Shown one piece after another: positions 3,290-49,919 of a stretch of 64,000 nucleotides of DNA. Numbering within the stretch: position 1 is the stretch's first letter; every line of letters begins with the position of its first letter. Source of the stretch: Anadara kagoshimensis (Eukaryota; Mollusca; Bivalvia; Arcoida; Arcidae); the NCBI GenBank assembly GCA_021292105.1, contig CM037873.1, positions 15,598,051 to 15,662,050 on the forward strand, given 5' to 3'. The position numbers and the translations under genes are program-made. Below the pieces are notes generated by a model. The model had not been told where the DNA came from. It saw nothing but the letters and a program-made list of their open reading frames with translations, and ran no database searches.

Positions 3290-3471
3290 ACAGTCAAACC
3301 TGTCTATGAAGGCCACCCAAGGGAACCAGTAAAAGTGAGCTTTATAGGCAGGTAGTCCTTATATACAGGTTCAAAAAATGTTAATACAAAGCAATTGGGA
3401 TAAAATATTGCTGACATTAATAAGAAGGTGGCCCTTATATAGAGGTGGCCTTAAAACACAAGTTTGACTGT
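3290..3471. mobile_element. Short TIR mini-element, copy 1 (CAGTMAAACCTG type)
   Basis: Begins ACAGTCAAACCTGTC and TATGAAGGCCACC, and ends GGTGGCCTT and AGTTTGACTGT in inverted orientation. The 182-bp body has no coding capacity. Related copies lie at 10929-11319 and 24605-24771, with AT-rich bodies speaking of 'tata-gaggtggcc' near the right end. Looks like a non-autonomous TIR element. Confidence 0.55.
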
Positions 3472-3482
3472 ACTGTGAAATC

Positions 3483-3485
<3 letters not shown>

Positions 3486-3533
<48 letters not shown>

Positions 3534-3538
3534 TTTTT
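3486..3538. repeat. (AT)n followed by poly-T
   Basis: About 15 AT units running straight into 20+ T. It lies just before a SINE-bearing stretch. Confidence 0.95.
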
Positions 3539-3720
3539 GGTGTTCAATGTTTTTGGTTCTTAGGAAAAATACCATTTCCTTGACATGTAAATTTGTGGGT
3601 CGGGGTGTCCATGGAAGTGATGAAACTTGGGACACTACGGAAATGAACGATTTCACAATATTTCTCTTTGTGTGAATAATTTGAATACTAGTATCAATTT
3701 GGTATACCATTCAGTTAACC

Positions 3721-4058
3721 ACTGTGTTAGCTCAGTTGATAGAGTGCTTGCTTCATAAGTGGGAGGTAGTGGGTTTGAACCCTGTCCGGGTCTGACCCAA
3801 GACTTGAAAGTGAGTAGTGACTGTTCTTTCGCCAAACACTTGGCATTACGAAATGAAAGTTATGGTTCTTTCCGATGAAAACTTTAAAATAAATGAGGTC
3901 CGTATCACAAAAGGCTTGGCACGATAAAGAACTCTGCTGCATAATGCCATCAGTGCAACGCACAGGCAAAATTTCTGCACCTATGCCTATAGCTGGCAAT
4001 GTCTTGATATCAATGAAAAATTGACTGGGACATAAAACATCATTACTCAACTCAACTC
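3721..4058 (+). mobile_element. tRNA-derived SINE, full-length copy
   Basis: Head resembles a tRNA with internal Pol III promoter: A box TAGCTCAGTTGATAGAGTG and B box GGGTTTGAACCCTG. It continues through a common body (TCTGACCCAAGACTTGAAAG, then CCTATAGCTGGCAATGTC) to an ACTCAACTCAACTC tail. The head is too degenerate in the acceptor stem for a functional tRNA gene. Sister copies are at 11353 and 25661. Confidence 0.85.
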
Positions 4059-5164
4059 TTTTGATAGTACCTCTTGTGTTTAGGATTTATTTCTCTTAGT
4101 ATATTTGATACCAATATGCAGCAAAGTGATCTTAAACTAGTGGTATTAAAAGACAGGTAGTCTTCTTATGTAGGTGTCACTCTAGCAGGTTTTACTGTTG
4201 TTAGCTCTCATTATTACTTCACTAGTATGGTTGTCATGTGTTTCTGATATAGATAAAATTGACATGAATAACCTGGCAAATAATTTACTAATTTTAGTTT
4301 GAATTTGGAAAGTGTTTTAGGTGTTAGTCATGTAGAGAATTTTAAATTGCTACATTCCAGTGATTATATAGTTACTGTAATATGAATATACATCATAGAT
4401 ATATACTGATACTGTAAATGTGATAATTTTAGTGGTATACTAATTTAGCGATTTTCAGTTATACGGTAGTGCTTATTTAAATCCACCATCAAATTAAAAA
4501 TGATCATATTACACAAGGTAATCAATAAGATTTACGATAATTCCCTTTTGCATTAAATTTCTCCATTTTATAAAATTAGTGCTAATTTGTACTAAAATCT
4601 GTACACATGCACTAAAATGACTACATTTTGAGTATATATGTACATATATTGATAAAAGCTTTGTTATCAGTTTTCTGGTTGATTCATTAAAGCATAACAC
4701 AGTGTATGCAGGGTGATGCCTTGCTAAAATTGGGAAATTTGAACTCATATATATAAGCTTTATTTTCAGTTTTCCAGTTGATTCATTAAGCATAGTACCT
4801 TTGTTTACATTGTATGCAGGGATGCCTTGATAATTTTTATCATCTGTATTTAAGTTTTATCTGAAATTATATCAATATTTACCTGTAGTATAATGAATTA
4901 AAATGCTATAAAATTTGTATATTTTTGAAATGTTCATTCCATATTTTTAGTTCACGAAAATCTGTAGCCATTAAGTCACCCTGTTTAGAATTACATAAAT
5001 TTAGATTGATAGACATAAATATATAATAGAAACTTTTAGTTATCTAGTGTCTAATTTTTTTATTTTGATTTTAATTTTGATGTATTTTATACATATTTTA
5101 TGTATTTATTACAACACCATTAACATATTAACCATACATTATCACATTTTGTTTTTACCACTAG

Positions 5165-21621: not shown

Positions 21622-21840
21622 AATAGATTTACTAATATCATGATATAAACCAACCATTCACCTAGGTTTCCATAAATTGAAAATAATTAGTGGCCAAATT
21701 TCCAAAATTTGTGAAAATATAGTCCTTTTTAAAGTATTTTTCCACAAATTTGCTAAAATAGGTTACTTTTTGAAAGAATTCCACAGAAATTAGTAGCCAA
21801 TGGCGATTTTGGCTACCAGGAATATGGAAACATAGATTCA
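21622..21840 (+). repeat. Interspersed repeat family B, copy
   Basis: Carries CCAAATTTCCAAAATTTGTG, AAAATATAGTCC, TTTTCCACAAATTTGCTAAA, TAGTAGCCAATGGCGATTTT and ACCAGGAATATGGAAACATA. The same string of motifs recurs at 22475, 27715, 29740, 30205 and 47612 (plus) and at 24805 and 34290 (minus). Confidence 0.7.
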
Positions 21841-22310: not shown

Positions 22311-22474
22311 CATAAATAGAAGTACTTTGTACACTGATCATATGATAGACACCTTAACAATAACCATGTGATGCCTCATAAAACATTTGTAAGGAAGTAC
22401 TGTCTATACTGTTTATGGAGAATTGTCCTAGATTTTCACAATCTCAAAATTATTATTATTATTATCATTATTAT

Positions 22475-22595
22475 TGGCAAAATTTCCAAAATTTGTAAAA
22501 GTATAGTCTTTTTAAAAGTATTTTTTCACAAATTTGCAAAAATATATTACTTTTTTAAAGAATTCTCAGAAATGAGTAGCCAATGGCAATACAAG
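22475..22595 (+). repeat. Interspersed repeat family B, copy preceded by (TTA)n
   Basis: Follows a TTATTATTATTATCATTATT tract and carries the motifs CAAAATTTCCAAAATTTGT, AGTATTTTTTCACAAATTTG and GAGTAGCCAATGGCAAT. Confidence 0.65.
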
Positions 22596-23034: not shown

Positions 23035-23040
23035 TTTATT
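23035..23040 (-). terminator. Candidate polyadenylation signal after exon C2
   Basis: AATAAA on the minus strand, about 240 bp beyond the C2 stop codon, next to a poly-T run on the plus strand. It is the nearest match and is unproven. Confidence 0.35.
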
Positions 23041-23280: not shown

Positions 23281-23466
23281 TCACACATGTAAAATCTCAA
23301 CGTCTTTCTCTGTAAGTGATGGAATTAATAAGAAAAATTCTTGGAGATTTTTAAGAGTTCCTCGATTAAATGGATTATAGTAATCCCCTTTACCATCTAA
23401 TAAATAATTATAACGTTTCCAGTTAATCCTTTCGTTAGCCGTTACGTTATAAGCAGCATGTAGAGT
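23281..23466 (-). CDS. S-acyltransferase alternative terminal exon C2
   Basis: 186 nt including TGA, phase 0 acceptor after TATTTTCAG. It encodes [19 protein letters not shown], then [19 protein letters not shown] and a tail ending EILHV. It aligns with C1 over NVT-NER, K-Y, G-NPF-G and FF. The TTxE motif is TANE here. Confidence 0.82.
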   Translation of the reverse strand, partial: TLHAAYNVTANERINWKRYNYLLDGKGDYYNPFNRGTLKNLQEFFLLIPSLTEKDVEILHV

Positions 23467-26240
23467 CTGAAAATACAAAGATAAAATCATAAGTATGGTA
23501 GGGCATGATACAGTGAAACCTGTCTAAAACTAAATACCTTCTGGACTGATGATTCAGTTACAGTGAGACAGGTATTCATTTTACACAGGTTAAGTTGACA
23601 AACAATATTATAATAGTATATTGTAAACGTATTTAATTTCGCATGTATCTTTTTTTCACAGAATAAGATATCGAGACATATCCACGTAGTTGAACTTTTG
23701 CCGTTTTTAAATATGCAATGTAACACATTATGTATAATATAATTTTCATTTGGTATTTATTTTCACGCAAAACAAACAACCCTAAAATAAGTGAAAATAT
23801 GTACATCGCAAAAATAAATACGTTTATAGTATGTATGTCTTAATAAAGTACCGTAATCCTTTCATGTTTTCAAAATGTATAATTTTCAATTTTCCTCTAA
23901 GTTTCCAGACACTTGAAAATGAAATTGTTAAAATTTGTCGGAAAATATAGAAGGATTACGGTAGTTCAGTTCAGACAGTTCTTTCATAATATCTGGCACC
24001 AATCTATCAATAAATTTTCTTCCAACATGAAAGAATTTTTCTATTCAAGTAAAACAGTGATTCAAAAGACATGCTTCCAAACAAATTTACAAGCATTCAC
24101 AATCTGATGGCAGAGTGTTTATAGAGGCAATAGTAAATCGCATAAACAAGTACCACTAGTGTTTACATAATCATACCATCTCACACAGACATAGAGTGTC
24201 AAAACCACTCCGATACTGTAATATATTGGCAGGGTCAAAATTTTGTGAGTTCTGAAATCTGGCATTTGGAATGGGTGTAATTTTCATGTAACCAATATAA
24301 GTGGGTGTATGTTCATGTTCTATATATATAATGATATATTATCTGGTATAGCAGACATTTCCGCGTGGGTAACATTTTGTGGTAATTTCTGTAGCACAAA
24401 ATAAGTGAAAATTTTGACCACATGGACATTTGCCCCTTTACAGTATTAGAATACATTTGCTGTATACTTTGCCATTAAATTGTGATGGACCTACACCTTT
24501 TCAGTTCCAAATGCCCATTTACATTTCATTTTGTACAACACATTCTATAATATTACACTTTTTTGTCATAAGTTGTATGAATGAAACTCAATAAACACAA
24601 ATGAACAGTAAAACCTGCATATAAATGACCTTCCATAGGGACTAACCAATATGGACATTTATAAAACTTTTTCTTGTTGAAAAACAAAGCAAAAAGACAG
24701 ACCCTAAAATAATAATCTTAGTGGTCTGGTGGTCTCTATTTAAAGATGGTCATTATGACAGGTTTTACTCTATTTGATATCAACACCAAGTGAGAAGGGG
24801 GCTTCTAGATATTGGTGAAATTTGTGAAAAAATACTTTAAAAAGGACAATATTTTGACAGATTTCAGAAATTTGGCTGCTAATAATTTTGAAATTCTAGA
24901 CACTAGAATAATTATTTCAAAATTTCAAAAAAGTAAAAACAAATATTTTTTACATCCTGATAAACATTTGAAAAATCATTAATAAATAATAATAATAATA
25001 TTTATGCCACCTTCTTACTGTCAACCAGACATAACAACTGATTGTCAAACAGATTTAACATCAACAGGATTGACATCGTCTAATTTATATTCTGGTAAAT
25101 GTTTTATATGGAAAAAGTCAAATGCATTCAATTTCCATCCGTGATCAAATGGATTGACCAACTTTCCTTCACTGTCATGCATGTGGTCATATTTTTTGTA
25201 TCGTAATCTTTCATTTGTTGTCACATTTGTAAATGCATTATACAGCTGAAAAAAAAGAAATAAGTAAAAATTAAAATGTGTACATATCAAATTCAAAATG
25301 AATGAATTTCATAAATACAAGTTATATGCCAGTTTAGAATCATTTCCCCTAGTCTACCATTTGATAATATAGGATATTGGTGCCTCTATATCATGTGCTT
25401 TGGTTGGGGAATACGAAGATTGAAAGTATACCATATTTTGTGACCTTCTGCATCAAGCACTCAACATTTAGGAAGTAACATGTCCTTTGGACAAGACCTT
25501 AAAACTGTGTCAATACAGACTTAAAATGATTAATGCCAAGTACATGACATTTGGTTTTTCATATAAATTTCTACCAAAGTATAGCTGGTGATACCTCAAT
25601 ATAAGTGAAATATGTAAAATCCCATTCACATTAGAGAAAACAGATTTATGTTCGGATTTCCACTACAGTAGCTCAGGTGGTAGACTGCTTGCTCCATATG
25701 CAGGTTAGGTTTGGAACCCCGGCTGGGTATGACTAAGACCTGAAAAATTGGTATCGATTGTTCTTTCTCCAAGCACTTGGCATTTAGAAAAGAAAATCAT
25801 AGGGTCCTTTAGAAGTTAGCCTAAAAAAACTGATGCCCCTTTACATGGTAACCATTGCATGCTACAGAGCCCTCCCTTCACAATCCCTAGGCACAATGCA
25901 AAGGTAAAAGGTTTTACCACTTCACCTATAGCTGGCAACATCTTGATATAAATGAAATATTCTTAACTGGAACATAAAACCCTATTCAATCAAGTAATTT
26001 TCAAATACAACAGGATGACATTATATCAAACCAAGTAAAATACAAACAATGGGCAATTAATTTAAATTTTATTTTTGTTTTCCTGACAACTCCTAATGTG
26101 TGTGTAACATGGCAAGGGATATTTATGAGCTGAAAAATGTTAGCCATGTCAGGTTCCCTGTACAACAAGACATCTCACATTCTTTACATTTTTGGACATA
26201 CAAAGTACAGCCACTTCCACATTCTTTAGCTAACTAAAGT

Positions 26241-26298
<58 letters not shown>

Positions 26299-29200
26299 CA
26301 AATATCTCTACACTTTAAATAGTTTTCAATAAAATGTTAAGGAAATAAATTTTTTAAGACTTTATAGAGAATAGTAAAATATTTGTGTTTTAAGAAGCAA
26401 GTGTTAACGATGTCAACAAAGTACTTGACTTACCACGCCCACATGTATATACTTGTTTTATAAGCATGTCAAGTGCCTATCTAACATTTAAACATTTTAA
26501 ATGTGCGTATTTATTACTTTTGTATTTCTCTTGTGGAAACTCAGTGATTTTCTCCAGGCACTGGTTTCTTTCATCATACCTAAACTAACCACCTCAATTT
26601 GAGTGAAAAAAAATCTTAAGTAGGGCAAAAAATCTTCATAACTCCATTTCATTTGGTCTTGATCAAAGCTCTAGATCTTAACAGCTTCATCTGCTGTGAC
26701 TTTCAATTTATTACTTCCTGTTTCGAGCTTAAAACAAGAGTATTGCCATTTAAAGGCACACCCACAAACTTTAAACTTTTGTTGTTACAGTGAACTGATA
26801 ACCCTGCTGCATCCCTGTGTAACTAACTGACTAATTGCTTTGAGAAAATCAACAAATGGGAAAACCTTAAAACTATAGAGTGTCTATGAAGCAAATAATA
26901 ATCTTTACCCAGACAGGGGGATCTAAACTGCAAGCTTACAGAGTGGAGAGGGGTAATGGAGTTTTACTTTCTAGTCAAGATTTTTCATAATTCAGGTGCT
27001 CAATTTGGTGATAGTGGAGATTCAAACCTAGGCATACAGAGATGCTGTGATCTGTAAGTGCATGCTTTAAACCACTTGATCACAGACACTCCTACTAGCT
27101 TATGGGTCAAAGTGCTTTTAGAATGACACCACATTAAAAGTGAGGGCGGTCAATATGATCCCCAAGTGTCCTTGGAGTAATTGGCAGCACTATAACATAT
27201 AACATCTAAAATTTGACTATGGAAGGAAATAACTGGAACAAAGTTAAACATGTACATAGCATTATACTTACTGTAAAGCCAAACACCCAGGTAGCAACAG
27301 CTTCAAAGAACAGCATCAGTAATACATATATCCTATATATCATATTCCACTCTTCTCCGCTATACTGCATGTAGTAATACGTGAAATACATAGATATAAC
27401 TCCTAAACACATCACACAGCAGGCAAAACCTATAAATGTCACTCTGTAAACAGCAGCACAAAAAACAGAAGAAAACATCTACATATTAACAGTCTGTAAT
27501 TAAAAAATCTCTAATTAATTTGTTGTTATTGTAAACAAGGTGATATTCCATTGAAGTTGGTTTTGGGTTTAAGTTAGCCATTGTTTGTACCGATAGATCA
27601 AAATTTACAGATACCTGTAGAAAATCATCATATTTTTATCGGTTTATTTTCAGCTCCATATCATCATATAAATAATTATATGTGCATGAGTTTCATTGAC
27701 ATCTCAAAGTTTTCACATTTTCAAAATGATCAGTAGCCAAATTTCCAAAATTTGTGAAAATATAGTCCCTTTTAAAGTAATTTTTTTGCATAAACAGGTC
27801 AATGTTTTAAGGAATTTCTCAAAAACTGGTAGATAACCGGTGGTGATTTTGGTAACCAGGAATGGAAACTTAGCATGTAAACTGAAATCTATATATCACA
27901 AAAATGACAGATATCAATGGAAAATTGTGCTTGTTTGCAACTGACAACACAAAAATATTCAACAATTAAATAAGAGATAAAAACCAATTTTTTCAAAACT
28001 GTGACCTTCATTTGACCTTGACTATTGAGAAACTTCACTGTGGTGGATTGTAGGAAAAGATTAGAAATTTAAATATGCATGTGTTGTACATATGGAAATT
28101 GGTGTATCTTTTTATGACCAAGTTGATTTTATCAAAAATTTTTGGTTTTTGATTTTTTTTACAAACAAAAAAGGCGGCTGCAGTTTTTACTATGTTTGAT
28201 TTTTATCCCTTCTAGTATTCATATAAAACAATGACAGCCTTACCATGAGACAGGTGACAGCTGTGACAGCCACACTGGCCACACCCGCTTCTACAGCCCC
28301 AATAACAACGGCCCAGTCAAATCCAAACTCACTCAGTAACCAGTAACAAAAGAAGTCCGTCAACAATACCAGAATAAACATACAGAACACAAACGAGAAA
28401 AACCATGGCCTACAACAGAAGAACAAAAAATATCTCATGTCAGTAGGCAATACAGATATCGGCAATATTGAAAATTTGAGCAGTAACACCCGATATGGCC
28501 ATCGCCAATTTTTTAGCGATGATGATTATGATGCTGATATAAAATAACAATGCTAACAGGTATTCGTCATCAACAGCATGACATAGACGTTCAGACAAAG
28601 CAAAAAAGTTAAAGCACATGCAGGACAGCAAACAAGACAAAAATTACTTGATGATTTGCGAAAAGTTTCACTAGTACCATTACACCAGAGGTAACTATAA
28701 GCTAAGATAGTAGGTATAACTACATGTACATGTATATTGAGCTTGAGGGTCAGATAGGAGAAAAAAATTTAATCACAGCAAGTAATACATCAAACTTTTT
28801 TTTAAATCTTCACCGTCTACTGTGAAGTGAAGATTAAGTGTTTTATAACATATGACCAAATCTATTTTTTTCACTGAAACTTGGGCATAGTTAAGATTAG
28901 TTAAGAAAGTGGGCTAGTGAGTAAAACAGCTTTAGTTTAGTTGTTACTGTGGCTAAATGCAGTTTGATAAGGGAGCAGTGTGCAAAAATGTTATTGTTAC
29001 CTGGCAACTAGTCTATAATTGTGAGAGAAAAACTACTACAAGAATGTGAGGTATTGTAATTAAGAATTGAATTCTAGTGGTTAAAACAAATATGACACCC
29101 ACAATTACATGAACATCAATGATACCAGAAGTGAATGGGGTACAAAATTAAAAACAAATGACACCACAACAGTCCCTTTTAGAAAGAAGTTTTAGAAAGG

Positions 29201-32200
29201 TAATTATTAAGAAAGAAAACTGAAAAAGTATGTGTTACAAAAAATGGTGATGTTAGAATCATAGATATGAAATAAATAAACATAAGTTATAAGTGATATA
29301 AATTTGTGTACAGACAAACAACACTGACCTGTCAACTTGACCTTTCATTAGGAATATTCATATAGGAGAATCCATCTAATACATGGGTAGCGTTAGGATT
29401 CACAGTTAATACATACACAGGAAACAAACTTATACCTTTTAACTTTAGGTTAATATTTTCCTGCCTTGACTACCTGATCATTAATTCCAAACAATGATGG
29501 ATGAAATAAACATCTGTGTTCTCTATACATAAATGTATGATACTTGTCCATAATAAAATTTTAAATTGAGGTCAAGTAGACAGGTCAATGTTGTTTGACT
29601 ATACTGGTATATCTCGGTAGACATGCATGTTAAATAAAATGTAACAACAGGCTATACAGCAAAGCATAACCATGACATATGCAAAGGTGTTTAAAGCATT
29701 CTAAATTCACATGAAATTCAAAAGATATATCTAGGTTTTCACAAATTTCACATTATTAGCATCCAAATTTCCAAAATTTGTGAAAATATAGTCCTTTTAA
29801 AAGTATTTTTTCCTATAATGCAGACAAATTAATTTTTGCAAGAATGTCTTGGGAAAAAAGAAGGCAGTAATTAGTAAATAATATTACTTTAGTTTTCATT
29901 TACTGGAGTTGATAACATAATAATATATTGCAAAGAGCTTAAGTTTAAATGTGACACATTTGAGACACCCCTTCTATATTACTGTTATGTAGACTTTAAA
30001 CATTGACTTCCAGCTTCTGTTTCATTGATATAACATATAGACATGGTTATACTATTTTTTACAGATTCTAAAACTAAAAACTAAGTTATTCTAATATATA
30101 AAGGTGCAATAAAAGAAATAGGGAATGATTCACACAACCCATCAAAATATACATGTAGTAGCTTCCCTCATGCTTATCAAACATTCATATAACAGGTTTC
30201 TAGAATTAACTATAATTAGCCAAATTTCTGAAATTTGTGAAATTTAGTCCTTTTTAAAGTGCAAATGTACTGGCATTTCTTCACAAATATGCTAAAATAA
30301 GTTACTCCTCAAAATAATTTCTCAATAATTTGAAGCCATTTACCATTTTGACTACCAGGAACAAGAAACATAGTATATATGTCAAAAGTTTTAGAATTTA
30401 TTTTAATCAATAATGTAAATATTCAGTTGATGGAAGAAAGTCCCTATTCCAAGGCAACAAATATCAAAGAATGTACATGTCTGTCCATAGAAAGTCACAC
30501 GTGGCTAAGAAAGAAAATATGAATTTCAGCATTTAAAACCAACAGACAAATCCAACAGTAAAAGGTAGATTATAGAGGGAAAATAACCAACTACTCCCAA
30601 TGCTAAGAATTCTAAAGAGGTCCTCTTAAGTTGGAACAAAAATATAATAATGAATAAAGTGGCAAAAAAATATAATTTTGCATATGACACACTAGAAGGG
30701 TAAACTTTTAAAACATATTTTATTTTGGGTTCAATTTGATGACAAGAATTAAATTTTATAATCCAAATATAGTTCAAACTGTGGACAAAACCTATTTTAT
30801 TGTAACTTACATTATTGTTTTAACTTAAAAACATAGCACTGTCGTGCTGCTGTACAGCGTAGTTGGGAAAATTGTGTTGTGGCAAGACAGAATATAACCG
30901 AAAATTCGGGGGGAGGGGGGGGGGGTGTCGTTAATCTATGCATATAGTCCGACGGATGGGGTTTTTTTGGAAAAAGAAACAAATTTTTATGTACCAAACC
31001 ATGTATTGCTGAATTAAATGGTAGAAAAAACTAATTTCATAAATATTTGAAAAAGACAATCGGTAATTAAAATTTAAAAAAGTTGTACCCGATCGTTTTT
31101 GTCATTTCGGATAGAGAGAAAGTAGAGTTTTGCAGATCCTACCGTCGCTATGAGGGGGTACATTCTAGCGGTTGTATGCATAACTGAATCATTTAGTTGT
31201 TTTACCAGTTCCGAATTTTTACTATCGAATAATCTAAAATTTCAATCCCGTTCAATTAAAGGAATCGCAAAAAAACTTTCTCAATTTGCTGTTTCTTCAA
31301 CCGCTTCCTAAATGTACGAGATTGTTGGTGACCTAGTTTAACGATGTAAACAAATCGTGATCACGGAAATGCTTTTTTCAAGAAAACATACTACCACGTG
31401 TTTTTGAGGACAGGGTGTCGATATTTTGGAATCAGTAAACATTTGTATTATTACACCACATAAATTTTATTTCCTCTGCTTGTGGATGACGTCTGCAGCA
31501 GCGCTTATATAAAAACCCTGTTCGGAACTGGTAAAACGACTGTATATAAAATTTGCATACAACACTGTACGAATTATCTCCCTTTCACGAAAGTAAAATC
31601 TAATCGATAAACATTTTAAAATAAGACACAATTGCCTCAACATTAAAATACGTTATCATAACCTTCAAAATAAATTTAAATTTCCGTAGATTTCACGAAG
31701 AATTAATTAAACAACCTGCCGTTGCTGTTCATTTCTTAAAAAGTTATGATTTTACATCGTAGGACGCAAACTTCTCGAACTACTTTTTATTGTAAACATG
31801 AGATCAGTTCGCCAAATTGCAGAAATTATTAGATGCATCCCGTCGCAATATTTTACTAGATTCTGAAATGTATTCCGAAAATTTATTCCAAATGTGCATA
31901 TGTAACCAAATGCATTACCCGTCTCAGAATACATATCTCACGATAAAACAGATATACTTCTTTCACGCTCATTTATCAGGCGCACTATTTCCAGGTGTAC
32001 TCATATCTTATAATTTCATAGCAAAGAAGCTCGAAATCTTGGAAGAAAGCGATGACAAAGTACAGGTTCACTTTGTTCACGCTGTACAAAAATTTTGTAA
32101 CTTTTCCTCAACCAAGAAAAATGCTAAAAAGTATAGTATGATAACTAAAATTTCATGAAGCAATTTACTATTCAGTTTTTGAAAAATATGTCATTGTTCT

Positions 32201-35200
32201 AGAATTTAACAAGACAACATCACCAGGATAAGAGAGAGATTTTAACTGAATTATTACCAGTAAAATTATCTATGGATTGACCAAGCCAAAATGATAATTA
32301 CAGATAATTCTACATATGGTCTAACCCAGGCAAATTTATAATTTCTGGTAATGCTACATATGGATTCACCAAGTCAAAATATTACAACTATTTCAAAAGC
32401 GGGTATACATATAACATTGTACAGTGAGATCTGATTAGAAATTGATGAGTAATACATACATATAGATATAATTATAAAATAAAATAGCATAAATAAAAAC
32501 CCAGTCCAATCAAAATAGATCTGAGGCAACATGCAATAAAAACATGCATTATTATTCATACTGGCTACATTTTTCAAAACTTTATGGGAATAATACAGAT
32601 GGTCTTGTGACAAATATCACATATGAGAATATTCAATTCAAGCTATAAATAATGCACAAGTAAAATTCTTTCATGCCATTTCTACCACCACTTCATAATA
32701 ATTCTACAAAGGTATATAACCCCTATTTTACCAGATAAAATGGCAAGCAATAATCAAACGCAATGAGCAATGAGCCTTTTTTAATTTTGCTCAGCATGCT
32801 TAGTGACTGATTTATTTTCTTTTAATTTGGGGGGGGGGGGTCACCTTTGTACCATGTGTTGCCTTCTAATGTTTATGCAGAACAATTATTGTCATTGCAT
32901 ATGGAATCATATTAGTTCATGTTTTCCAGTAATAATGACTGACATTATTCCAGCAATTGACTATGTAAACCTTTTCCAAAAACGCCCCGCACAAATGTTA
33001 AGGTGTATTGGTCATGTGGTACAGTGGTGAACCCTATTCTTCCATCTTATTATTAATAAAACATTGACATTAAGTTGTATTATACCAATTTTTATAACAG
33101 TGAGAAATTTTAAAGTGATATTTATATCAGAAAACTTACCTATTTCTATATCCTACACAATTATATATATATGGACAGTGATGATCAAACATTTTAACAC
33201 ATCTATTACACACACGACAATGTTTTGATCGTAACGGTTTTACTGTTCTACACGTGTGACATAGTCTACTTAATGGATTATCTCCCTGTTTCCACTCATC
33301 AAAATGAGCAACCTGAAAATACATAATACAGTTATTAGTCAAATTCATTTTATCTGCATGTACATGTTGAAACACATGGTTTAGCAGTTAAGGTTACAGG
33401 TCAAGGGGTTAAGGTCACAGGTCAAGGAAAGGTCAAAGGAAAAGTAGACGCATGTAGCAGGTTTCATACTTATTATTTGGAGAATAGGATCTGTGAGTCT
33501 TATCATGTGACCAGCATGAATCTGTTATTTCCAAGTACAAAAAAGTAGAACCACTTAAAATTACTTGATAAAACAATTGGTCATTTGGTTTTACAGCCGA
33601 TATCATCTGTTCTCTTTAATCAAATTACAACAAATTATTCATAACCAGGTACTTATAACATCAAAAAAGTTAAAACAAGACCTATAGACCATTTTACTTT
33701 TTTGAAACATATATCAAGACAACAAAATCAATATTTTTTTTTTAATTTTGAACCCAGATGGAGTGAACTGGAGTAATGATATTTTATGCAGAAGTCAAAA
33801 TTCTTTCACTTATATCAAGGCAGCCAGCTCAGAGATGGCACAGGGAACAGCAATGCAAAGAGAAAATCACCAATATTTCACAAGCAAACTGACAAACTTT
33901 CTTAAACTATGAGGTGTCCTGAGCTGGATTCAAAACTAGGAGGTGAAAGTCACTATTATCTGTAAGTGAACACTTCACCTCGACCACCAAGGTCCCTTAA
34001 ACCCAGATTCTAACATTATAAATCTGTAGTTGAATCATTTCTTACCTGTTTAATGGCTTGATCATATTCTGGTATATTTCTAGGTAGAAAGCCCGGATCA
34101 GTAGTACTAGCATGATATAAACAAAACCACATAAACACATTCATGATGAAAAATATAATATGAGCAACTTGTAGATCATACCATGTATAAGGCAAACACT
34201 GAAATATAAAGATAAAAATTATGATATAAATTATACATACATTATTACAAGACGTTATTTAAGAAAAAACATTTAAATGCTCAATGCATAATCACCTATT
34301 TTTGAGTAATTCTTTCAAAAAGCAACCTATTTTAGCAAATTTGTGAAAAATACCTAAAAATGGACATTTTCACAATTTTTTTAAATTTGGCTGATAATGA
34401 ATTCTTAAATTTGTAGACCAGTGTCTCTTGATCTATTTATTTCTTGCAAATCACAAATGGGTACAGAAACCTGCTGAAGTTTCAATTTAACAAGACTTTT
34501 CTTAAACAAGAGGCCCAAGGGCCTTAACGCTCACCTGTGATCTTTGAACCAATGAGCTTCATTCAAATATCAAAATGATAATTTGGCCAATATTCTAATA
34601 TACATCCCTATACAAAAAGTTTATAGTTTTTGAGATAAATAATCATTTCAGACCTTGTTCACATCTGTGACCTTGACCTTTGAACCCATAACCTTCATTC
34701 ATATATCAAAATGGTTGTTAGGCTAATACCTACAATATTCTAATATACATGCATATACAAAAAGTTAACAGTTTTCAAGATAATTAACCATTCAGGTATT
34801 CATTCACATCTGTGACCTTGACCTTTGAACTCATGACCTTTATTCATATATCAAAATGACCATTGGGCCATTACCTACAATATTCTAATATACATGCCTA
34901 TACAAAAAGTTCATAGTTTTGCAGATAATTAACTATTTTGGTAAACTTGTACATCTGTGACCTTGACCTTTGAACCCATGAACTTAATCGATATATCAAA
35001 ATGATCGTCATGTCAATACCTACAATTAACCAAAAATCCTACATCATTATCACCAGAAATGTTTAAAAAATAGCATTTTTTATCAAAGGTAAAAAACTGG
35101 GACATGACCTTGACCTTTGACCTTGACATCAATCGGAAGAAAATCGCAAGACAAGATCAACAGTGAAAACTCCATACAATTATCTTCAGCCATTATGAAG

Positions 35201-38200
35201 TTATAACAATAAATGTCTCATTTTAAAAATTACATAATTTTACGCAAAAAATGCGTAACCTATTTTTCGTTCAATTTTCATGAAAAACACAATTATAGTG
35301 TATCTAGGTATCCTGAATCCAAATATCTAATCAAAATTTGCCTGCACCTTTTGGTTTCAGAGAAGAAGATTTTTTTGTCTTTTGGCTATTTATAGTAACG
35401 GCAGCCATATTGTTGGGCGTGGTCAAACCCCGAACACAATTTTGAAAGCCTGTTACCAAGGCATAATAATCACCAAGTTCCATCAAATTTGGCTCAGTAG
35501 TTTTGGAGGAGAAGATTAAAATGTAAAGTTTACGCACGACGCACGACGAACGACGGACGACGGACGGTGATAGATAGCAATAGCTCATCTGAGCCTTTCG
35601 GCTCAGGTGAGCTAAAAATCTTGTATAGATTTATACTAAAATTCTTGTATGGATTAAAATTTAAATTCTAATATGCATTTATACTAAAAATATTTTATAC
35701 TGTAATTTTATACTTTTTATATGTATATTAATGAGAAATCTGGAGATTTAAAAATGTTATTGTTTGTTAAGTTGGGCAGCAAATAGCAGAATTTTGCTAA
35801 TCAATTAAAATGGATATGGCCCCGGTTTCACAATCATTCCTTAACTAAGATTTTCCTTAACTTAAATTTCGCAAATTTTGATATTCTCTTTTTGGAACTA
35901 TTGATGAATATTATTGTCAAAACTAAATGCAAATGTTTTAATCTTGAGGTCATCTTAAAAATAACACCTTAAATTCCTGAATATCTTGAAAATTAACAAA
36001 ATTATGAAGATTTGAAATTTTGCAAGATTTATGTTAAGGAAAATCTTAGCTAAGGAATGATTGTGAAACCGGGGCATGGAATGAATAATGACTAACCTTA
36101 AACACATACATAGGATATCCCCAACACACAACATTTATAAGGAAAAATAATATTGCCGCTTTACTATTACCTGGAGGACCAAATGCAATTGTTCTGAAAA
36201 TAAACAAATAGTAATAATGTAATTACTCGCTCTGTACTGTATGGAAGGACACAAATGTATCATCTTGTATTCTTAAACTTCTGGTCACATCAATAAGACT
36301 CTAACAAAAAGATTGATTGTATAAAGAGAATTTTTAATAGTTTGTTTGAAATAAATAGAAATTCTTTCAAGTCCGGAAGAATATTTGTTTGGTTGATAAA
36401 CATTTTGCCTAGAGGAACAGCAAGCCTAAAAATATTGTATTCCTCTTTTTAAGTGAATTACTTTAAAGTTCCCTTATAATATATATGGGGCTGAGGTGTC
36501 AGGTAGTTAGGGTATTAGCCTTCTAAACCAAATAAACTTGTGTTTGAATTAATCCTTGAGATAACTAAGACAAATTGTCTCATTGTGATTTACAAAAAAT
36601 GCTGGGCAACATTCAACCAACCAATGTTACTTAGGATACTTACAATAAATCTATTTTTGGTAGTAAACTGCTTTTCATTTTAACCTGTCTTTTAAGATAG
36701 TCGGTTACATCTTCATGTTTTCTACCTGTAGCTAACATCATAGGTGTTTTACCATTCTTGTCAGGTAGGTCAATCTCTACACCATCCTGAAACAAACAAA
36801 ACAAAGATGAGCATTAGTGGTCGTGGTTTTAAATCTAAACATGGTCATACATACGACTTTAAAATCTGAGATACTGCTTCCCTGCCTGTTACTTGGTATT
36901 AAGAGGTCGGAGTATCAGCTATCAGTATAATGTGACTGGGGGAGTGGTATGCTTGTCTGTGGTATACTGACTCGGTGAACTAGTACCATAAAGTTGTCAT
37001 GAATGTATGTTATTACAAGGCAAACCATAAATAAAACACACTGGCACATCTCATACATACAAGAACCTGTTGTTAGATTAATCTGTAGAGAATAATAAAC
37101 ATGACCTCATTAGGGATAGCTGAAAAATTGCTGATGCATTCCATCCATCCAACCAACCAAAGATGAACATACCAGCAAAATAAAAACATTTTCATCAACA
37201 TAAAAATTATCTCGAACTCCACAGGGAAATGAAAATAGTTGGACTTTTCCCAATTTCAAGATACAGAAAATTGCGGATGGCAGTCAAAGGGAGGGGGGTC
37301 GTACTTTTGCCAACCGTAAGTTACTCTCCACCAAACTTCCAGTTTGACTCATCCAGAAATTTGAGATATCTGAGTTCGAGATAACGAGATTCAACTGTAT
37401 TTCTCAAATTTTGGAAATTTTCAATTTGTGAGAAACTTGTTAGACTTAGATATAAAATTATTGTTATAAATTAAAGACTTACTTGTTCACAGAGTTCCAT
37501 AACAGCTGTTAAATTACCATTAATACAAGCCAGGTGTAAAGGTGTCTGACCATAATTATCTCGCTGTCTGGGATTAAAGCCGGAATAAATTAATAATCTC
37601 ATTAATTCTGAAAAACCTGAAAAATAAGCGGAAAATCTATTTTGACCACATATCTTACTCTCTAAGGTTATGCTAAACAGTAAAGCTTCTATTCGTTGAC
37701 ATCAGTTATTTTAGTCATATCTTGGCGTTATTAAGGGGTATGGGGATAAATCAAGGAGGAATAGTACTTTCAAAGAAATATAGAATAGATTTTGGGACTT
37801 TAAAATAGTGTGGCGGTAAGTATTGTAGAAAAGTCACCGAGAGGCATAATAACAAGGTTTTACTGTACATATATATATATAAGCATATCAGTATATTATG
37901 AGGAGTTTCACCCAGGTAAAACATTATTAAATTTTGTTCTGACAAACAACATAAACATGCAACCTAGGATACAAAATTAATAAATAATTTGTCAGCTTGC
38001 ACAAAAGGAGCCAACAAGAGGCCCAATAGGGCCTGTACCGCTCACCTGGGCCGTTAACAGCACAAAAACACAATAAATACTACATTTAAGGAGCAATAAC
38101 TCTGATGTGGATATTTAGATATTTATGAAACTTGCTACTTGCATCTGTGACCTTGATCTTCGAACCAATGACCATAATCTATATATCAAAATGATGATTG

Positions 38201-41200
38201 CATCAATACCAACAACATTCCAATATACATGCCTATACAAAAAGTTCATAGTTTTCGAGATAATGAATCTTTTTGGTATTGTTTTGCAACCGTGACCTTG
38301 ACCTTTGGACCCATGACCTTTTTCTATACATCAAAAATATTGTTGTATTAATACCTACAATATTCTAATATAAATGTCTATATAAAAAGTTTATAGTTTT
38401 CAAGATAATTAACGATTTTGGTATTGTTTTGCTACTGTGACCTTGACCTTTGGACCCATGACCTTTTTCTATACATCAAAATGATCGTTGTATCAATACC
38501 TACAACATCCTAATATACATGCCTATACAAAATGTTAATAGTTTTCAAGATAATGAACCATTTCAGTATTCTTTCACATCAATGACCTTGACCTTTAAAC
38601 CAATGACCTAAATCTATATATCAAAATGATTGTTACATTAAAACCAACAACATTCCAATATACATGCCTACACAAAAAGTTTATAGTTTTCAAGATAATT
38701 AACAATTTTGGTATTGTTTTGCTACTGTGACCTTGACCTTTGGACCCATGACCTTTTTCTATACATCAAAATGATCGTTGTATCAATACCTACAACATTC
38801 TAATATACATGCCTATACAAAAAGTTAATAGTTTTCAAGATAATGAACCATTTCAGTATTCTTTCGCATCTGTGGCCTTGACGTTTGAACCAATGACCTT
38901 AATCTATATATCAAAATGATCGTTACATCAAAACAAACAACATTCTAATATACATGCCTATACAAAAAGTTTATAGTTTTCAAGATAATTAACGATTTTG
39001 GTATTGTTTTGCTACTGTGACCTTGACCTTTGGACCCATGACCTTTTTCTATACATCAAAATGATCGTTGTATCAATACCTACAACATTCTAATATACAT
39101 GCCTATACAAAAAGTTTATAGTTTTCAAGATAATGAACCATTTCAGTTTTCTTTGCATCAGTGACCTTGACCTTTGCACCAATGACCTGAATCTATATAT
39201 CAAAATAATCATAACATCAATACCAACAATATTCTTATATACATGCCTATATAAAAAGTTTATAGTTTTCGAGATAATAAATAATATTAGAAAGGTAAAA
39301 AATTAGGTCATGACCTTCATAATTGACCTTGACACCATTTTGAAGGTAATTACAAGAATATGTCAAAACTGAAAACCCCATGTCATTATCTGGTCATATA
39401 GTCAAGTTATAACAATTTAAAAATATTTTACGATTTTTGCAAATTTAAACGCAAAAACGCATAACCTATTTTTAAACCAAATTTCATGAAATGAACAAAA
39501 CTTAAAGGTTAAGACTATGTAGAATCCAAATATCACATCAGTTTTTGCCTCCAATGAGTGGTTCAAGAGAAGAAGATTTTTTTTAGGTTTTGTCTATTTT
39601 TAGTAACAGCGGCCATCTTGGATATTTGATCGCCATGATTTGAACAAACTATAGTTAGACTCTGTCAAGGACCTTCCATGGCAAATTTGGTTTCAGTTTG
39701 CCAAGTAGTTTCGGAGGAGAAGATTAAAGTTTACTGATGCACGCACGCACGCACGCCTCGCCATGCCATAAGCTCACATGGCCTTTGGCCAGGTGAGCTA
39801 AAAATGAGGAACTGACCTTTACATAAAATGTCATTTGATGTTTAAGTGTCATTTACTTACATAAAGTATCATGTGACCGTCACATGATGTGTTTTTTGAA
39901 TATTACATAATGTGCATCTAAATTGTAAACTAAACTGAAAATGTTTATTGTCAACAATTCATTCCAATTTGCACTTCAGACAACAAAAGTAAGTGAGGGA
40001 AATAAAAGTTGATTTTTAATTTTACCTTTAAAAGCTGCCCAATGTAAAGCATTATCACCATCTTTGTCCACCATTTGTAGCCTGGATCCCTTACCCATCA
40101 GGTACCCTGCTAACATTGTATGACCATATTGAGCAGCAACAATAAGTGGAGTACATCCTTTATTATCGGCCACATCAAACGACACCCCAGACTGAAGTAG
40201 AATGTCTACTATTGCTATATGTCCATTTACACAGGCCCAATGAATTGGTCTGGCACCCAGATCATTATTACTAACTTCATTTACTGGGCCTTTGTTCTCG
40301 ATAATAAATCGTAAAATTGTGGTATGACCCCCAAGACATGCCCAGTGAGCTGGAGTGTGACCTTTGTCATCTCGCATAGAAAATACTTCAGGTCCTTCTT
40401 CAGCTATGGTCTGTACAGGTATCAACATACTGAAATATAATAAAACAGTTAAAAACTTTTTTTATTAAAACTATTGTTTAAAAGATAAGGTCATGAAGCA
40501 GTGAAAAAGTGTTGCCTTTGTGATATATACTAATATAAAAAAAAAACGAATCACAATCCAGAAGCAAAGTAAAAACTTTGGAACTCACAAATTAAGTTAA
40601 ACATGGAAGTGAAGCCGGAGCAGGGTAAACACTTCTTGTTTAGCTAGCTACACCTGCCATGTGTGTAATCAAAAAATTAGTGAAAGGAACTGAAAGTATA
40701 TTATATGTGCAAAGTTGTTTAAAAAGAAAAGATGTATGACAAAGGTGTTTGTTATAGAAAGCAGTAAAAAAGAATGCTTTGCAAAGTTCAACTATTAACA
40801 GACACAACAATTAAAATCAATGATTCTCTAACATAATTACCGTAATATCTATTATTAAATAGGATTTATTATAAAATTTGTGCTATCAATTACACTATAA
40901 ACACTCTGCTGTTCAGCTTACCACCAAAAAGAACGGGAAATAACTGTGACATCCACGTTAATATCAATATTTATATAAACATTATTAAACTAGAAAACAT
41001 CTCCAATCAAACTTTAGATGATGTACTATTTGTATTTCAGTATTTGGTTTACATATTAGCCACAACCATTAAACATCTTTTGGTACCTTCTTATAACAGT
41101 ATTTTATAAGCTATGATTTTTACATATGTATACACAATATTATAGCATTTTTAGTAAACTTTTCTTAGTAAGGTAATAGTGAATATTTCAACTTGGTTCC

Positions 41201-42013
41201 CATTATTTGCAGTTGTTGAGATAAAAAAAACTATTTTATATTTGCACAAATATTTAAGCTTAAGGGTTCGTGTATGGACATTGGAATTAACATGAAAAGA
41301 TGTGAGAACTGATGCAAGTAAATAAAATTTCATTAATAGGGTTGAAATACAGATAGGATGAAACGTATCATAGAGACCTACAGAAAAGTTCAGAAATTCA
41401 CACTTTTCTAGTAAATTCTCAAAACTTGAGAAAAAGTTTCCAGCTTTTATTAATTCATTATTTTTTAAGTGGTTTAAGAGCTTTAATGAATAAATATGCA
41501 ATAAAACAGCATCCACACATTATGGTAAGAAACGTATTTAATCCTGGTCAATGTATTAAACATTCTAAACCTCTAATCCAAACTGTAAGCAAATTTGAGG
41601 AAATCACCATGGTCACTTGACAACTATTTACAAATAAACAAACGTGTTTAATTAAGTACCGATCAAATGTATAAACGTATAAATTTCACACAATAAATTG
41701 ATTCAAGTACAAATTTTGTTCTGATTTTCCTGATTTCCAAATTTTGTATTGCATTAAAGAAACTGACGGGTTTAAATTGTAGTTTGTTGGACACCGGCAT
41801 GCTAAACTTCTGAATCATGAATGACGCCATGTGTGCATTATAAACAAACAAAAAACTATGTTAAGGATCATACCCAGTCTTGATCGCAGTAAATATTGGG
41901 TGGTCTTTCGCTGCATTTTCGTCTGGTTTGCAGCATCCACCGTCTGGTTCATGACAATGACTTGGTTTTCTCTCAGAACTTGAGGGCCCAAACATACTTG
42001 AAAACCCTGACAT
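23281..42013 (-). CDS. Ankyrin-repeat DHHC protein S-acyltransferase, complete gene with alternative 3' exons
   Basis: Membrane-bound palmitoyltransferase that thioesterifies palmitate onto cysteines of other proteins. Constant exons (minus strand): 41874-42013, 40026-40429, 37483-37616, 36644-36786, 36097-36193, 34046-34198, 33140-33312; then 28244-28409 or 27272-27443; then 25045-25245 or 23281-23466. All junctions are GT-AG and all phases fit, giving 531-538 residues. Domains: six ankyrin repeats (~66-265), TM1-2 (~285-340), DPG ([10 protein letters not shown]), cysteine-rich zinc domain with C-x2-C-x9-HC-x2-C-x2-C-x4-DHHC-x5-C (catalytic Cys ~403), TM3-4 on the alternative exon, and TTxE plus NPF at the C-terminus. 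Only about four membrane segments are seen rather than the six of ZDHHC13/17, so a Patsas/TIP1-like orthologue is more likely. It is divergent from RBX1 and convergent with PHKA. Confidence 0.9.
23617..23833. mobile_element. TIR mini-element (TACTGTAAAC type), copy 2
   Basis: Ends TATTGTAAACGTATTTAATT and AATAAATACGTTTATAGTAT are inverted relative to each other, as in the copy at 14138. It lies in the intron between terminal exons C1 and C2 of the S-acyltransferase gene. Confidence 0.6.
24605..24771. mobile_element. Short TIR mini-element, copy 3
   Basis: ACAGTAAAACCTGCATATAA at the left and ATGACAGGTTTTACTCT at the right form inverted ends. 167 bp, between exons C1 and C2. Confidence 0.55.
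24805..24905 (-). repeat. Interspersed repeat family B, inverted copy
   Basis: Contains TTTGTGAAAAAATACTTT and ATTTCAGAAATTTGGCTGCT in the reverse sense to the copy at 21622. Confidence 0.5.
25045..25245 (-). CDS. S-acyltransferase alternative terminal exon C1
   Basis: 201 nt including TGA, phase 0 acceptor after a long T tract. It encodes [19 protein letters not shown], then [19 protein letters not shown] and a tail ending VDVKSV. TTNE matches the TTxE motif and NPF the C-terminal motif of DHHC enzymes. No AATAAA is evident close downstream. Confidence 0.82.
   Translation of the reverse strand: MYNAFTNVTTNERLRYKKYDHMHDSEGKLVNPFDHGWKLNAFDFFHIKHLPEYKLDDVNPVDVKSV
25661..25994 (+). mobile_element. 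tRNA-derived SINE, third full-length copy
   Basis: A box GTAGCTCAGGTGGTAGACTG, B-box region GGTTTGGAACCCCG, body GCACTTGGCATTTAG and CACCTATAGCTGGCAAC, tail near CCTATTCAATCAAG. In the S-acyltransferase intron between exons B and C1. Confidence 0.8.
26242..26294. repeat. (AT)n microsatellite
   Basis: About 26 uninterrupted AT units. Confidence 0.95.
26530..27095. repeat. SINE-tail-like fragments
   Basis: AACTAACCACCTCAATTTGA at 26583 and CAAACCTAGGCATACAGAG, ATGCTGTGATCTGTAAGTG at 27025 match fragments at 900-1010, 33757-34010, 45230-45320, 47360-47450 and 49440-49690. This indicates a second tRNA-type SINE family whose tail includes 'AACTGACCACCTCAATATAA'. Confidence 0.5.
27272..27443 (-). 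CDS. S-acyltransferase alternative exon B (TM3-TM4)
   Basis: 172 nt between TTTACAG and GTAAGT; one base completes Arg, and it ends in phase 0 like exon A. It encodes [18 protein letters not shown] (TM3), a loop [11 protein letters not shown] and a second hydrophobic stretch [19 protein letters not shown] (TM4). It has the same layout as exon A but little residue identity. Splicing A to B would shift the frame and give a stop within about 27 codons. Confidence 0.75.
27715..27870 (+). repeat. Interspersed repeat family B, copy
   Basis: AGTAGCCAAATTTCCAAAAT, TTTGTGAAAATATAGTCC and GGTAACCAGGAATGGAAAC are present; the middle is degenerate. Lies between exons A and B. Confidence 0.65.
28244..28409 (-). 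CDS. S-acyltransferase alternative exon A (TM3-TM4)
   Basis: 166 nt between TTGTAG and GTAAGG; one base completes Arg, and the exon ends in phase 0. It encodes [17 protein letters not shown] (TM3), a short loop with FGFDW, and [15 protein letters not shown] (TM4). The position directly after NCVGYRN is typical for TM3 of DHHC enzymes. Phase and layout are the same as exon B. Confidence 0.8.
29740..29825 (+). repeat. Interspersed repeat family B, truncated copy
   Basis: Carries CATCCAAATTTCCAAAATTT and GTGAAAATATAGTCCTTTT, then diverges. Confidence 0.6.
30205..30372 (+). repeat. Interspersed repeat family B, diverged copy
   Basis: GCCAAATTTCTGAAATTTGTG, a shortened middle and TTTTGACTACCAGGAACAAG match the family order. 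In the intron after the DHHC exon. Confidence 0.55.
30900..32160. other. CpG-richer intronic block with an unassigned 113-codon open frame
   Basis: Within the 4.7-kb intron after the DHHC exon, this block has visibly more CG dinucleotides than its surroundings and starts with a G-rich run. A plus-strand frame (about 31805-32158) is open for over 110 codons and encodes [18 protein letters not shown] and later [15 protein letters not shown]. No family is recognised and the first ATG lies inside. It could be an unidentified nested exon, a foreign insertion or chance. Confidence 0.25.
33140..33312 (-). CDS. S-acyltransferase exon 7, DHHC cysteine-rich catalytic domain
   Basis: 173 nt, phase 0 to phase 2. 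All zinc ligands are present: [13 protein letters not shown], and the catalytic DHHC followed by [11 protein letters not shown]. The residue after DHHCP is Tyr, where Trp is usual. This is the last constant exon; its two-base overhang must be completed by exon A or exon B. Confidence 0.96.
33398..33435 (-). promoter_or_regulatory. Cluster of four AGGTCA half-sites beside the DHHC exon
   Basis: AGGTCA occurs on the plus strand at 33398, 33412, 33419 and 33430. The middle pair is separated by a single C, a perfect DR1 of the type bound by RXR/HNF4-class nuclear receptors. It lies ~90 bp upstream of exon 7 in the intron. Function is inference only. Confidence 0.3.
33757..34010 (-). mobile_element. 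tRNA-type SINE of a second family, inverted copy
   Basis: Read on the minus strand it starts GGGACCTTGGTGGTCGAGG, TGAAGTGTTCACTTACAG, and runs through a body with GTTTGTCAGTTTGC to a tail ending GTTCACTCCATC. It lies between exons 6 and 7 of the S-acyltransferase gene. Confidence 0.55.
34046..34198 (-). CDS. S-acyltransferase exon 6, TM2 and DPG motif
   Basis: 153 nt, phase 0. Encodes [20 protein letters not shown] (TM2), then [11 protein letters not shown]. The DPG tripeptide just after TM2 is a standard DHHC-family motif. Confidence 0.92.
34290..34405 (-). repeat. Interspersed repeat family B, inverted copy
   Basis: TTCTTTCAAAAAGCAACCTA, TTTTAGCAAATTTGTGAAA and TAAATTTGGCTGATAATGA are the reverse of the family motifs. 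Confidence 0.55.
34507..35617 (-). mobile_element. Helitron-like / pearl-like element with satellite core, copy 1
   Basis: On the minus strand the 5' end is TTTTTAGCTCACCTGAGCC, a fold-back (AGCTCACCTGAGCCgaaaGGCTCAGATGAGCT), followed by a CGTCCGTCGTTCGTCGTGCG stretch. The core holds about four ~143-bp units carrying CAAAGGTCAAGGTCAC. The 3' end is a hairpin AGGCCCTTGGGCCT followed by CTTG. The last feature is like Helitron 3' ends (hairpin then CTRR/CTTG). No coding capacity. Inserted in the S-acyltransferase gene between exons 5 and 6. Confidence 0.65.
36097..36193 (-). CDS. S-acyltransferase exon 5, TM1
   Basis: 97 nt. Encodes [11 protein letters not shown] followed by [20 protein letters not shown], a hydrophobic segment taken as the first transmembrane helix. 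Donor AAG|GTTAGT. Confidence 0.88.
36644..36786 (-). CDS. S-acyltransferase exon 4, last ankyrin repeat and linker
   Basis: 143 nt, phase 0 to phase 2. Encodes [19 protein letters not shown] and a basic linker (KRQVKMKSS) that leads to the first membrane segment. Confidence 0.9.
37483..37616 (-). CDS. S-acyltransferase exon 3, ankyrin repeats 4-5
   Basis: 134 nt. It completes repeat 4 ([16 protein letters not shown]) and encodes [20 protein letters not shown]. There are two adjacent AGs at the acceptor; only the upstream one, which retains GTTTTTCAG, keeps phase and the repeat length. Confidence 0.92.
38015..39804 (-). mobile_element. Helitron-like / pearl-like element with satellite core, copy 2
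   Basis: Same architecture as the element at 34507: minus-strand 5' fold-back AGCTCACCTGGCC / GGCCATGTGAGCT, a GCGTGCGTGCGTGCGTGCA stretch, a core of at least eight ~145-bp units, and 3' hairpin AGGCCCTATTGGGCCT followed by CTTG. The units alternate between two types. Located between exons 2 and 3 of the S-acyltransferase gene. Confidence 0.7.
38140..39300 (-). repeat. ~145-bp satellite array, 290-bp dimeric higher-order repeat
   Basis: GTGACCTTGACCTTT recurs about every 145 bp (38147, 38292, 38437, 38582, 38727, 38872, 39017, 39161). Units at 38437, 38727 and 39017 share GCTACTGTGACCTTGACC and TGGACCCATGACCTTTTTC almost perfectly, while those between carry a different flank (CAATGACC). Spacing between like units is 290 bp. 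Confidence 0.85.
40026..40429 (-). CDS. S-acyltransferase exon 2, ankyrin repeats 1-4
   Basis: 404 nt, starting with one base completing a Gly codon. Ankyrin cores are visible as [58 protein letters not shown] and [12 protein letters not shown]; the fourth repeat continues in exon 3. Ankyrin repeats in this family bind substrates and regulators. Confidence 0.93.
40547..40697 (+). repeat. Interspersed repeat family A, partial copy
   Basis: AATCACAATCCAGAAGCAAA, GTAAAAACTTTGGAACTCAC, TTCTTGTTTAGCTAGCTACA and CATGTGTGTAATCAAAA, in intron 1 of the S-acyltransferase gene. Confidence 0.8.
41874..42013 (-). CDS. S-acyltransferase exon 1, start codon
   Basis: Starts at the ATG on 42013 and ends ACTGG|GTATGA in phase 2. 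It encodes a cysteine-containing hydrophilic N-terminus ([18 protein letters not shown]) ending [10 protein letters not shown], which reads directly into the ankyrin region of exon 2. An earlier ATG at 42021 opens a different frame that cannot join exon 2 in phase, so it is rejected as the start. Confidence 0.8.
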
Positions 42014-42787: not shown

Positions 42788-43116
42788 AAAACAAACATAC
42801 AAATGTACAAATCCATGTCCGAATCACAATCCAGAAACAAAGTAAAATCATTGGAACTGAAAAATAAGGTTAGACACATGAACTTCCACCAGGGAAGTGA
42901 GGCTGTGTGCTCCGGAAGGGTAAGCACTTCCTGTTTAGCTAGCTACACCCTCCACGTGTGTAATCAACATTTTGTGAAAGGAACATGGAACTATGGGATG
43001 TCAACTATATCCAGGGCAATCCTGGACACAGAGACATTAAACTTATTAATAATATTGTGATGACGACCATAAAACTTGATAAGCCTTGATGGGCCTTGAT
43101 AAGCCTAGGCTTGCAA
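42788..43116 (+). repeat. Interspersed repeat family A, near full-length copy
   Basis: Runs from AAAACAAACATACAAATG and CAAATCCATGTCCGAATCAC, through ACTTCCACCAGGGAAGTGAG, GTTTAGCTAGCTACACCC and CAGGGCAATCCTGGACACAG, to GATAAGCCTAGGCTTGCAAT. The simple repeat begins immediately at its 3' end. About 80% like the copy at 60424 by eye. Confidence 0.85.
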
Positions 43117-43522
<406 letters not shown>

Positions 43523-43717
43523 TAACATGACCCTAATTTTGACATTTGTTTAAAAAAAGAAGCAATGCGTGTTGTGTGTTAGAAAGACAGCATTTTGAGT
43601 ACTTTCGTTTCTGTTATAAATTTATCGCTTATTCCTGAATTTTACTTTCGAAATGCCTTTTGATTCACTGTTAAAAATAAAATACTTCCGAAACCTTCCG
43701 AATTGACTATAACCAAT

Positions 43718-49919
<6,202 letters not shown>

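Follow-up and report, generated by a model that had tools for sequence, protein, structure and literature searches.

Can a single gene exchange the membrane half of an acyltransferase by splicing alone? A first-pass annotation of the 64,000-nucleotide stretch of DNA analysed here (the window) raised this question by proposing two phase-matched, mutually exclusive exons for the TM3-TM4 half of a DHHC enzyme, a choice that could switch the membrane cavity and with it the preferred acyl chain. From the sequence we conclude, with a probability of about 0.86, that the locus is one gene for a four-TM ankyrin DHHC S-acyltransferase in which two duplicated, diverged and phase-compatible 3' exon pairs (MX1/MX2 and T1/T2) would allow up to four enzymes. 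The gene lies on the minus strand and has seven shared exons (42013-33140), two TM3-TM4 exons and two last exons, ordered MX1-MX2-T1-T2 along its 3' end:

41874..42013, minus strand: E1, first coding exon, beginning MSGFSSMFG; start codon picked by eye; 100% amino acid match with the second copy of the locus described below
40026..40429, minus strand: E2, ankyrin repeats (gene model and Pfam)
37483..37616, minus strand: E3, ankyrin repeat (gene model and Pfam)
36644..36786, minus strand: E4, final ankyrin repeat (gene model and Pfam)
36097..36193, minus strand: E5, TM1 (gene model and hydropathy)
34046..34198, minus strand: E6, TM2 and DPG motif (gene model and hydropathy)
33140..33312, minus strand: E7, cysteine-rich domain with the catalytic DHHC (Pfam DHHC); its 3' end is the AG of a split Arg codon
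28244..28409, minus strand: MX1 (exon A of the first-pass annotation), 166 nt, version 1 of the predicted TM3-TM4 hairpin, with a small-residue TM4
27272..27443, minus strand: MX2 (exon B), 172 nt, version 2 of the predicted TM3-TM4 hairpin, with a bulky TM4
25045..25245, minus strand: T1, putative alternative last coding exon with TTNE, NPFDHG and stop
23281..23466, minus strand: T2, putative alternative last coding exon with TANE, NPFNRG and stop; AATAAA at 23040

The protein is a DHHC family member by sequence and a predicted S-acyltransferase. A cysteine-rich domain with the DHHC motif is present in E7, and the Pfam DHHC profile (PF01529) matches all four spliced partial products, each made of the E7 part, one MX and one T exon, at 84-95 bits over nearly its full length (89.7, 95, 84.4 and 89.2 bits). 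Several Pfam Ank families match N-terminal to the DHHC part, the best at E ~3e-39 in the two of four full-length isoforms scanned. Hydropathy of two of the four isoforms peaks at 287, 315, 416-418 and 448-453 with DHHC at 400, which places two TM helices before the motif and two after; TM4 of MX1 appears as two overlapping peaks. The DPG motif follows TM2 (TTDPGF in E6, position 340). TTxE follows TM4, as TTNE in T1 and as TANE, its second Thr gone, in T2, and NPFxxG is found in both tails, the T1 copy aligning with NPYSHG of ZDHHC9. Nine NCBIfam families matched, all far under their cut-offs, and were taken as ankyrin-repeat matches; Rfam gave no match at gathering scores.

Both hairpin exons belong to this one DHHC gene, as had been proposed. 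GT-AG bounds every intron, and all four MX x T combinations of the nine-exon model read as intact proteins of 531-538 aa. No second DHHC exon was found in a six-frame motif scan of the 64-kb window, so MX2 and T2 are not parts of another gene copy there. The proposal that each exon encodes a hydrophobic hairpin of two helices directly after the catalytic domain likewise agrees with the hydropathy of the two isoforms and with AlphaFold2, which folded each exon peptide, alone and without an alignment, into a two-helix hairpin (mean pLDDT 84 for MX1 and 88 for MX2).

Reading frame sets MX1 and MX2 against each other. Each supplies the last base of the Arg codon that is interrupted after NCVGYRN (AG|G or AG|A), ends in phase 0 and has a length of 1 mod 3; together with the splice sites (acceptors tgttgtag for MX1 and tgtttacag for MX2, donors gtaagg and gtaagt), these features uphold the phase matching that the first-pass annotation described. 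Its statement that taking both or neither breaks the frame also stood: once MX1 is joined to MX2, 27 codons of MX2 are read before a stop that lies 88 nt short of the next exon junction, and skipping both shifts the frame into a stop 8 codons into either tail, leaving a 422-aa product. To place the pair against its background, we counted cassettes of the form AG-[160-180 nt, 1 mod 3, open in the relevant phase]-GT on both strands of the window. Of 69 frame-compatible open cassettes (39 minus, 30 plus), only two combine a pyrimidine-rich acceptor with a GTRAG donor, MX1 and MX2, by criteria set after viewing their sites and hence not blind. Chance open frames of 165 nt and 171 nt occupy 2.4% and 2.0%, respectively, of the (overlapping) positions in sampled intron segments.

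The use of other splice sites to include both hairpins in one mRNA, an outcome raised in the first-pass annotation, would give a six-TM enzyme and is scarcely credible. Moved sites do restore the frame in 21 of the 98 donor-acceptor choices tried (with T1), but every such combination has at least one site that is poor by eye, none pairs two strong sites, and joining at the strong sites loses the frame. The extra hairpin would moreover fall between the catalytic domain and TTxE.

In the mechanism we favor, the pre-mRNA would take MX1 or MX2 for the hairpin, followed by either T1 or T2, which encode the cytoplasmic tail with TTxE and the stop. Ankyrin repeats, TM1-TM2 and catalytic domain would be common to all four isoforms. 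The spliceosome most likely selects one hairpin and one tail, presumably to the exclusion of the other. After double skipping, the stop would fall within the last exon, where it is not a classical decay target, and a truncated 422-aa protein would result. Double inclusion, with its premature stop 88 nt before a junction, would likely lead to nonsense-mediated decay, which may be how exclusivity is enforced. Such decay of double inclusion is described for many human exon pairs with incompatible frames in the available text of PMC5740500.

The last exons form a second pair. The first-pass annotation had named 25245 and 23466 as onward junctions; the exons there are themselves homologous, putative alternative last exons, T1 and T2, whose peptides are 42% identical across 43 aa (E 5e-9). 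With this duplication the choice would be 2 x 2, and TTxE too would be altered by the last exon. Alternative exons could still come in two fixed packages, for example each MX with its own tail, making two enzymes and not four. We consider this a serious prospect, though one that falls short of probable. Two hairpins and two tails may be what remains of a duplicated 3' end, and poly(A) choice after T1 could couple with MX choice. Poly(A) signals after T1 are weak (AGTAAA at 24769, TATAAA at 24663, AATAAA only at 23761), a point against the favored reading. Against such packages, the order MX1-MX2-T1-T2 is unlike a simple tandem duplication, all four joins are in frame, and profile scores are near additive, so the sequence favors no particular pairing.

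All four alternative exons are apparently kept by selection on protein sequence, none being a relic, as judged from a single second copy of the locus. The assembly searched, AT-rich and probably from a bivalve (1.115 Gb, 36 contigs), contains this copy ~1.21 Mb away on the same contig in the same orientation (C17:16816001-16856000), with part of the neighboring, presumably RBX1-like gene. It has 11 of 11 exons in order, with 100% amino acid identity and splice dinucleotides kept. Of 11440 aligned intron sites, 401 differ (3.5%, and locally 3.3-5.2% around the alternative exons), a count that leaves out stretches without a syntenic match. MX1, MX2, T1 and T2 carry 1, 3, 1 and 1 changes, all synonymous, and no indels. 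Pooled, the four exons have 6 changes in 146.7 synonymous sites, matching intron divergence, and none across 582.3 nonsynonymous sites, an outcome with P ~1e-9 if these sites diverged as the introns do; for each exon alone, the absence of nonsynonymous change has a P of 0.003 to 0.009. Shared exons show 5 synonymous and 0 nonsynonymous differences.

Zero protein change beside diverged introns is the strongest evidence against relic status for any of the four exons. Splice sites are also intact in both locus copies, and the idea that each pair contains a decaying, unused relic is accordingly very unlikely. Several other DHHC matches in the assembly likewise come in pairs, 0.2 to 1.3 Mb apart on a single contig (C7, C8, C10, C18), so the second copy may be an uncollapsed haplotype and not a duplicate; the paired loci suggest uncollapsed haplotypes or widespread recent duplications in the assembly. 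The selection test holds for haplotype and duplicate alike, but the time it samples is short.

One candidate for a splicing switch did not survive comparison with the second copy. An element in the MX1-MX2 intron could pair with an element in the T1 3' UTR at -63.0 kcal/mol, but we dropped this as a conserved mechanism because the pairing is made of a repeat with eight copies in the window and reaches only -22.2 in the second copy. In that copy the intron element has lost match or register at 40 of its 76 positions, the UTR element at 0 of 77. Elements of the E7-MX1 intron could likewise pair with the UTR copy, at -67.7 and -50.8 in the window and at -51.6 and -32.6 in the second copy. As a side observation, the dispersed element could give rise to extended RNA duplexes that span MX1, MX2 and T1. 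Its copies are:

24780-24930, 27719-27785, 29744-29812, 30196-30260, 21666-21751, 22467-22545, 34337-34411 and 47631-47705: dispersed element, 8 copies, both orientations

MX1 and MX2 appear to be an old and unevenly diverged pair. Between the two members of each exon pair (MX1/MX2, T1/T2), no match in the flanking introns exceeds 20 nt; the duplications therefore seem old, in line with the earlier suggestion, and dN/dS between paired exons is saturated. The earlier description of little identity fits the whole hairpin, for which 29 of 2000 shuffles score equally well, but not TM3 and the loop, where 8 of 32 ungapped positions are identical (shuffle P 0.0004). A structure search with the isolated MX1 and MX2 hairpins returned no match at E <0.001. 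Against the Pfam DHHC profile, the core alone scores 64.9 bits, rising to 85.2 with MX1 and 82.1 with MX2, and to 74.2 and 78.1 with the respective hairpins reversed; about half of the MX1 gain and three quarters of the MX2 gain are thus composition. Hairpin and tail without the core match the profile weakly (MX1-T1 13.8, MX2-T1 18.9 and MX2-T2 13.8 bits; E 0.0017 to 0.064), and MX1-T2 without the cysteine-rich domain gave no DHHC profile match. MX2 pieces without the core also weakly match an unrelated receptor family.

A clear size difference between the hairpins appears only in TM4, whose register is uncertain. In an ungapped alignment to human DHHC20, both TM3 segments have F171, F174, C177, L181 and F188, with T or S at 185; we take F171 and F174 of DHHC20 to be cavity positions. 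HMMER's alignment has a two-residue gap in MX2 TM3, which would shift positions 181 and 185. These two positions, with S29, L213 and S217, lie at the tip of the DHHC20 acyl cavity according to the available text of PMC9105814 and PMC9006032. At the gating/cavity Trp158 of DHHC20, the shared exon has a Tyr, a point against the favored reading. Testing whether TM3 identities lie on one helical face gave a weak result: P is 0.036 if the published cavity direction is assumed and 0.20 if it is not.

TM4 differs in bulk. Over 24 residues its mean residue volume is 121.8 in MX1 and 155.6 in MX2 (permutation P 0.005); the references ZDHHC5 (129.0), ZDHHC9 (138.4), DHHC20 (153.8) and chain 6bms (158.9) span a range that MX1 lies just under and MX2 inside. 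Counted back from TTxE, in an uncertain register, tip positions 213/217 are G and A in MX1 and Y and M in MX2. MX1 isoforms would then be expected to accept longer acyl chains, provided the register holds. In human DHHC20, the mutants S29F and Y181A indicate that cavity-tip residue size sets chain preference (available text of PMC9105814 and PMC9006032), and the aligned TM3/TM4 tip positions fall in the exchanged exon here. Those cavity changes are engineered mutants, whereas the exchange here would be natural and made by splicing.

The acyl-chain switch that was first proposed emerges somewhat weakened, because the two TM3 helices agree at the cavity positions compared in the ungapped alignment; the TM4 size difference speaks for it, within the limits of the TM4 register. 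Stated in full, splicing would pick the hairpin, and the pocket through its small or bulky TM4, and independently the tail (TTNE or TANE), letting the same ankyrin recruiter attach different fatty acids, or attach them at different rates, by tissue. We regard this full version as rather unlikely. That the hairpins are near-equivalent for catalysis, and that the choice alters targeting, stability or membrane partners and not acyl-chain length, has only slightly less than an even chance. TM3 positions 171, 174, 177 and 181 are identical and 185 is conservative in the ungapped alignment, although most other positions differ, and zDHHC substrate choice is thought to be driven by N- and C-terminal variable regions (available text of PMC9006032). 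The TM4 volume difference counts against near-equivalence. Within the favored reading of two exon pairs, hairpin and tail choice may tune the membrane cavity, mainly through TM4, the contact of TTxE with the active site, or localization.

The gene resembles known ankyrin acyltransferases and departs from them in topology. In ZDHHC17/HIP14, ZDHHC13 and yeast Akr1, as here, ankyrin repeats at the N terminus precede membrane helices and a DHHC cysteine-rich domain. ZDHHC17 has six helices, whereas hydropathy gives the MX1/MX2 gene two before DHHC and two after. A separate gene on contig C8, which we take to be ZDHHC17-like by comparison with the human ZDHHC17 sequence, has a single TM3 segment and a single TM4 segment, which seem to lie on different exons (one of two copies, by eye). 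No second TM3/TM4 version was seen among its open frames of at least 28 aa, read by eye in one copy. As far as this comparison reaches, the MX1/MX2 gene appears not to be the ZDHHC17 orthologue. Across 12 DHHC regions and eight further loci of the assembly, the best match to MX1 had E 0.70 and the best to MX2 E 0.044. No relative was found among viral contigs, and the only locus returned by the genome-contig search, a 27-residue match in a Poribacteria contig, was taken as chance.

Mutually exclusive exons in membrane proteins are already known, and none was found described for DHHC enzymes in the parts of the literature searched. Pairs such as those of human SLC25A3 and CACNA1C likewise consist of adjacent exons that match in phase, are similar in length and lie within a folded domain, and many are frame-incompatible if joined; some annotated pairs lack sequence similarity (available text of PMC5740500). 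Unlike in SLC25A3 and CACNA1C, a whole two-helix acyltransferase hairpin would be swapped here, and there is a second version of the last exon that follows. PMC5740500 does not mention ZDHHC in its main text. Literature on mutually exclusive exons or on ankyrin-DHHC genes of molluscs, covered by title and start of abstract and with most subscription papers and bioRxiv outside its scope, contained no such case. The determinants of DHHC fatty-acid preference, and its possible regulation by cells, have so far been studied through mutants and comparison of different enzymes, according to the available text of PMC9105814 and PMC9006032. If the favored reading is true, a natural gene holds the recruitment and catalytic domains constant and swaps the TM3-TM4 hairpin and the TTxE tail. 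Its four isoforms, differing in those parts alone, would be a ready-made test of fatty-acid preference, and splicing would diversify an enzyme within its membrane core.

Several features around this and other DHHC loci stand apart from the exon pairs. On contig C9 (C9:30776001-30786000, ~3100-4210), a short piece of a DHHC exon, RPPRASHCSLCDNCV, is matched many times at multiples of ~61 bp, next to ZDHHC9-like exon pieces. This is an unusual local amplification of part of an exon. Within the window, a gene at 43718-49091 on the plus strand, with exons reading MAAAMDVDE and CAICRN, lies head-to-head with the DHHC gene, with ~1.7 kb between start codons; we take it to be RBX1/ROC1-like. An open frame at 59777-59406 on the minus strand has one hydrophobic segment and a Pro-rich tail and is perhaps the 3' end of another gene. 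At 43083-43530 on the plus strand, a long simple repeat reads (QSIN)n in three frames and is shorter in the second locus copy.
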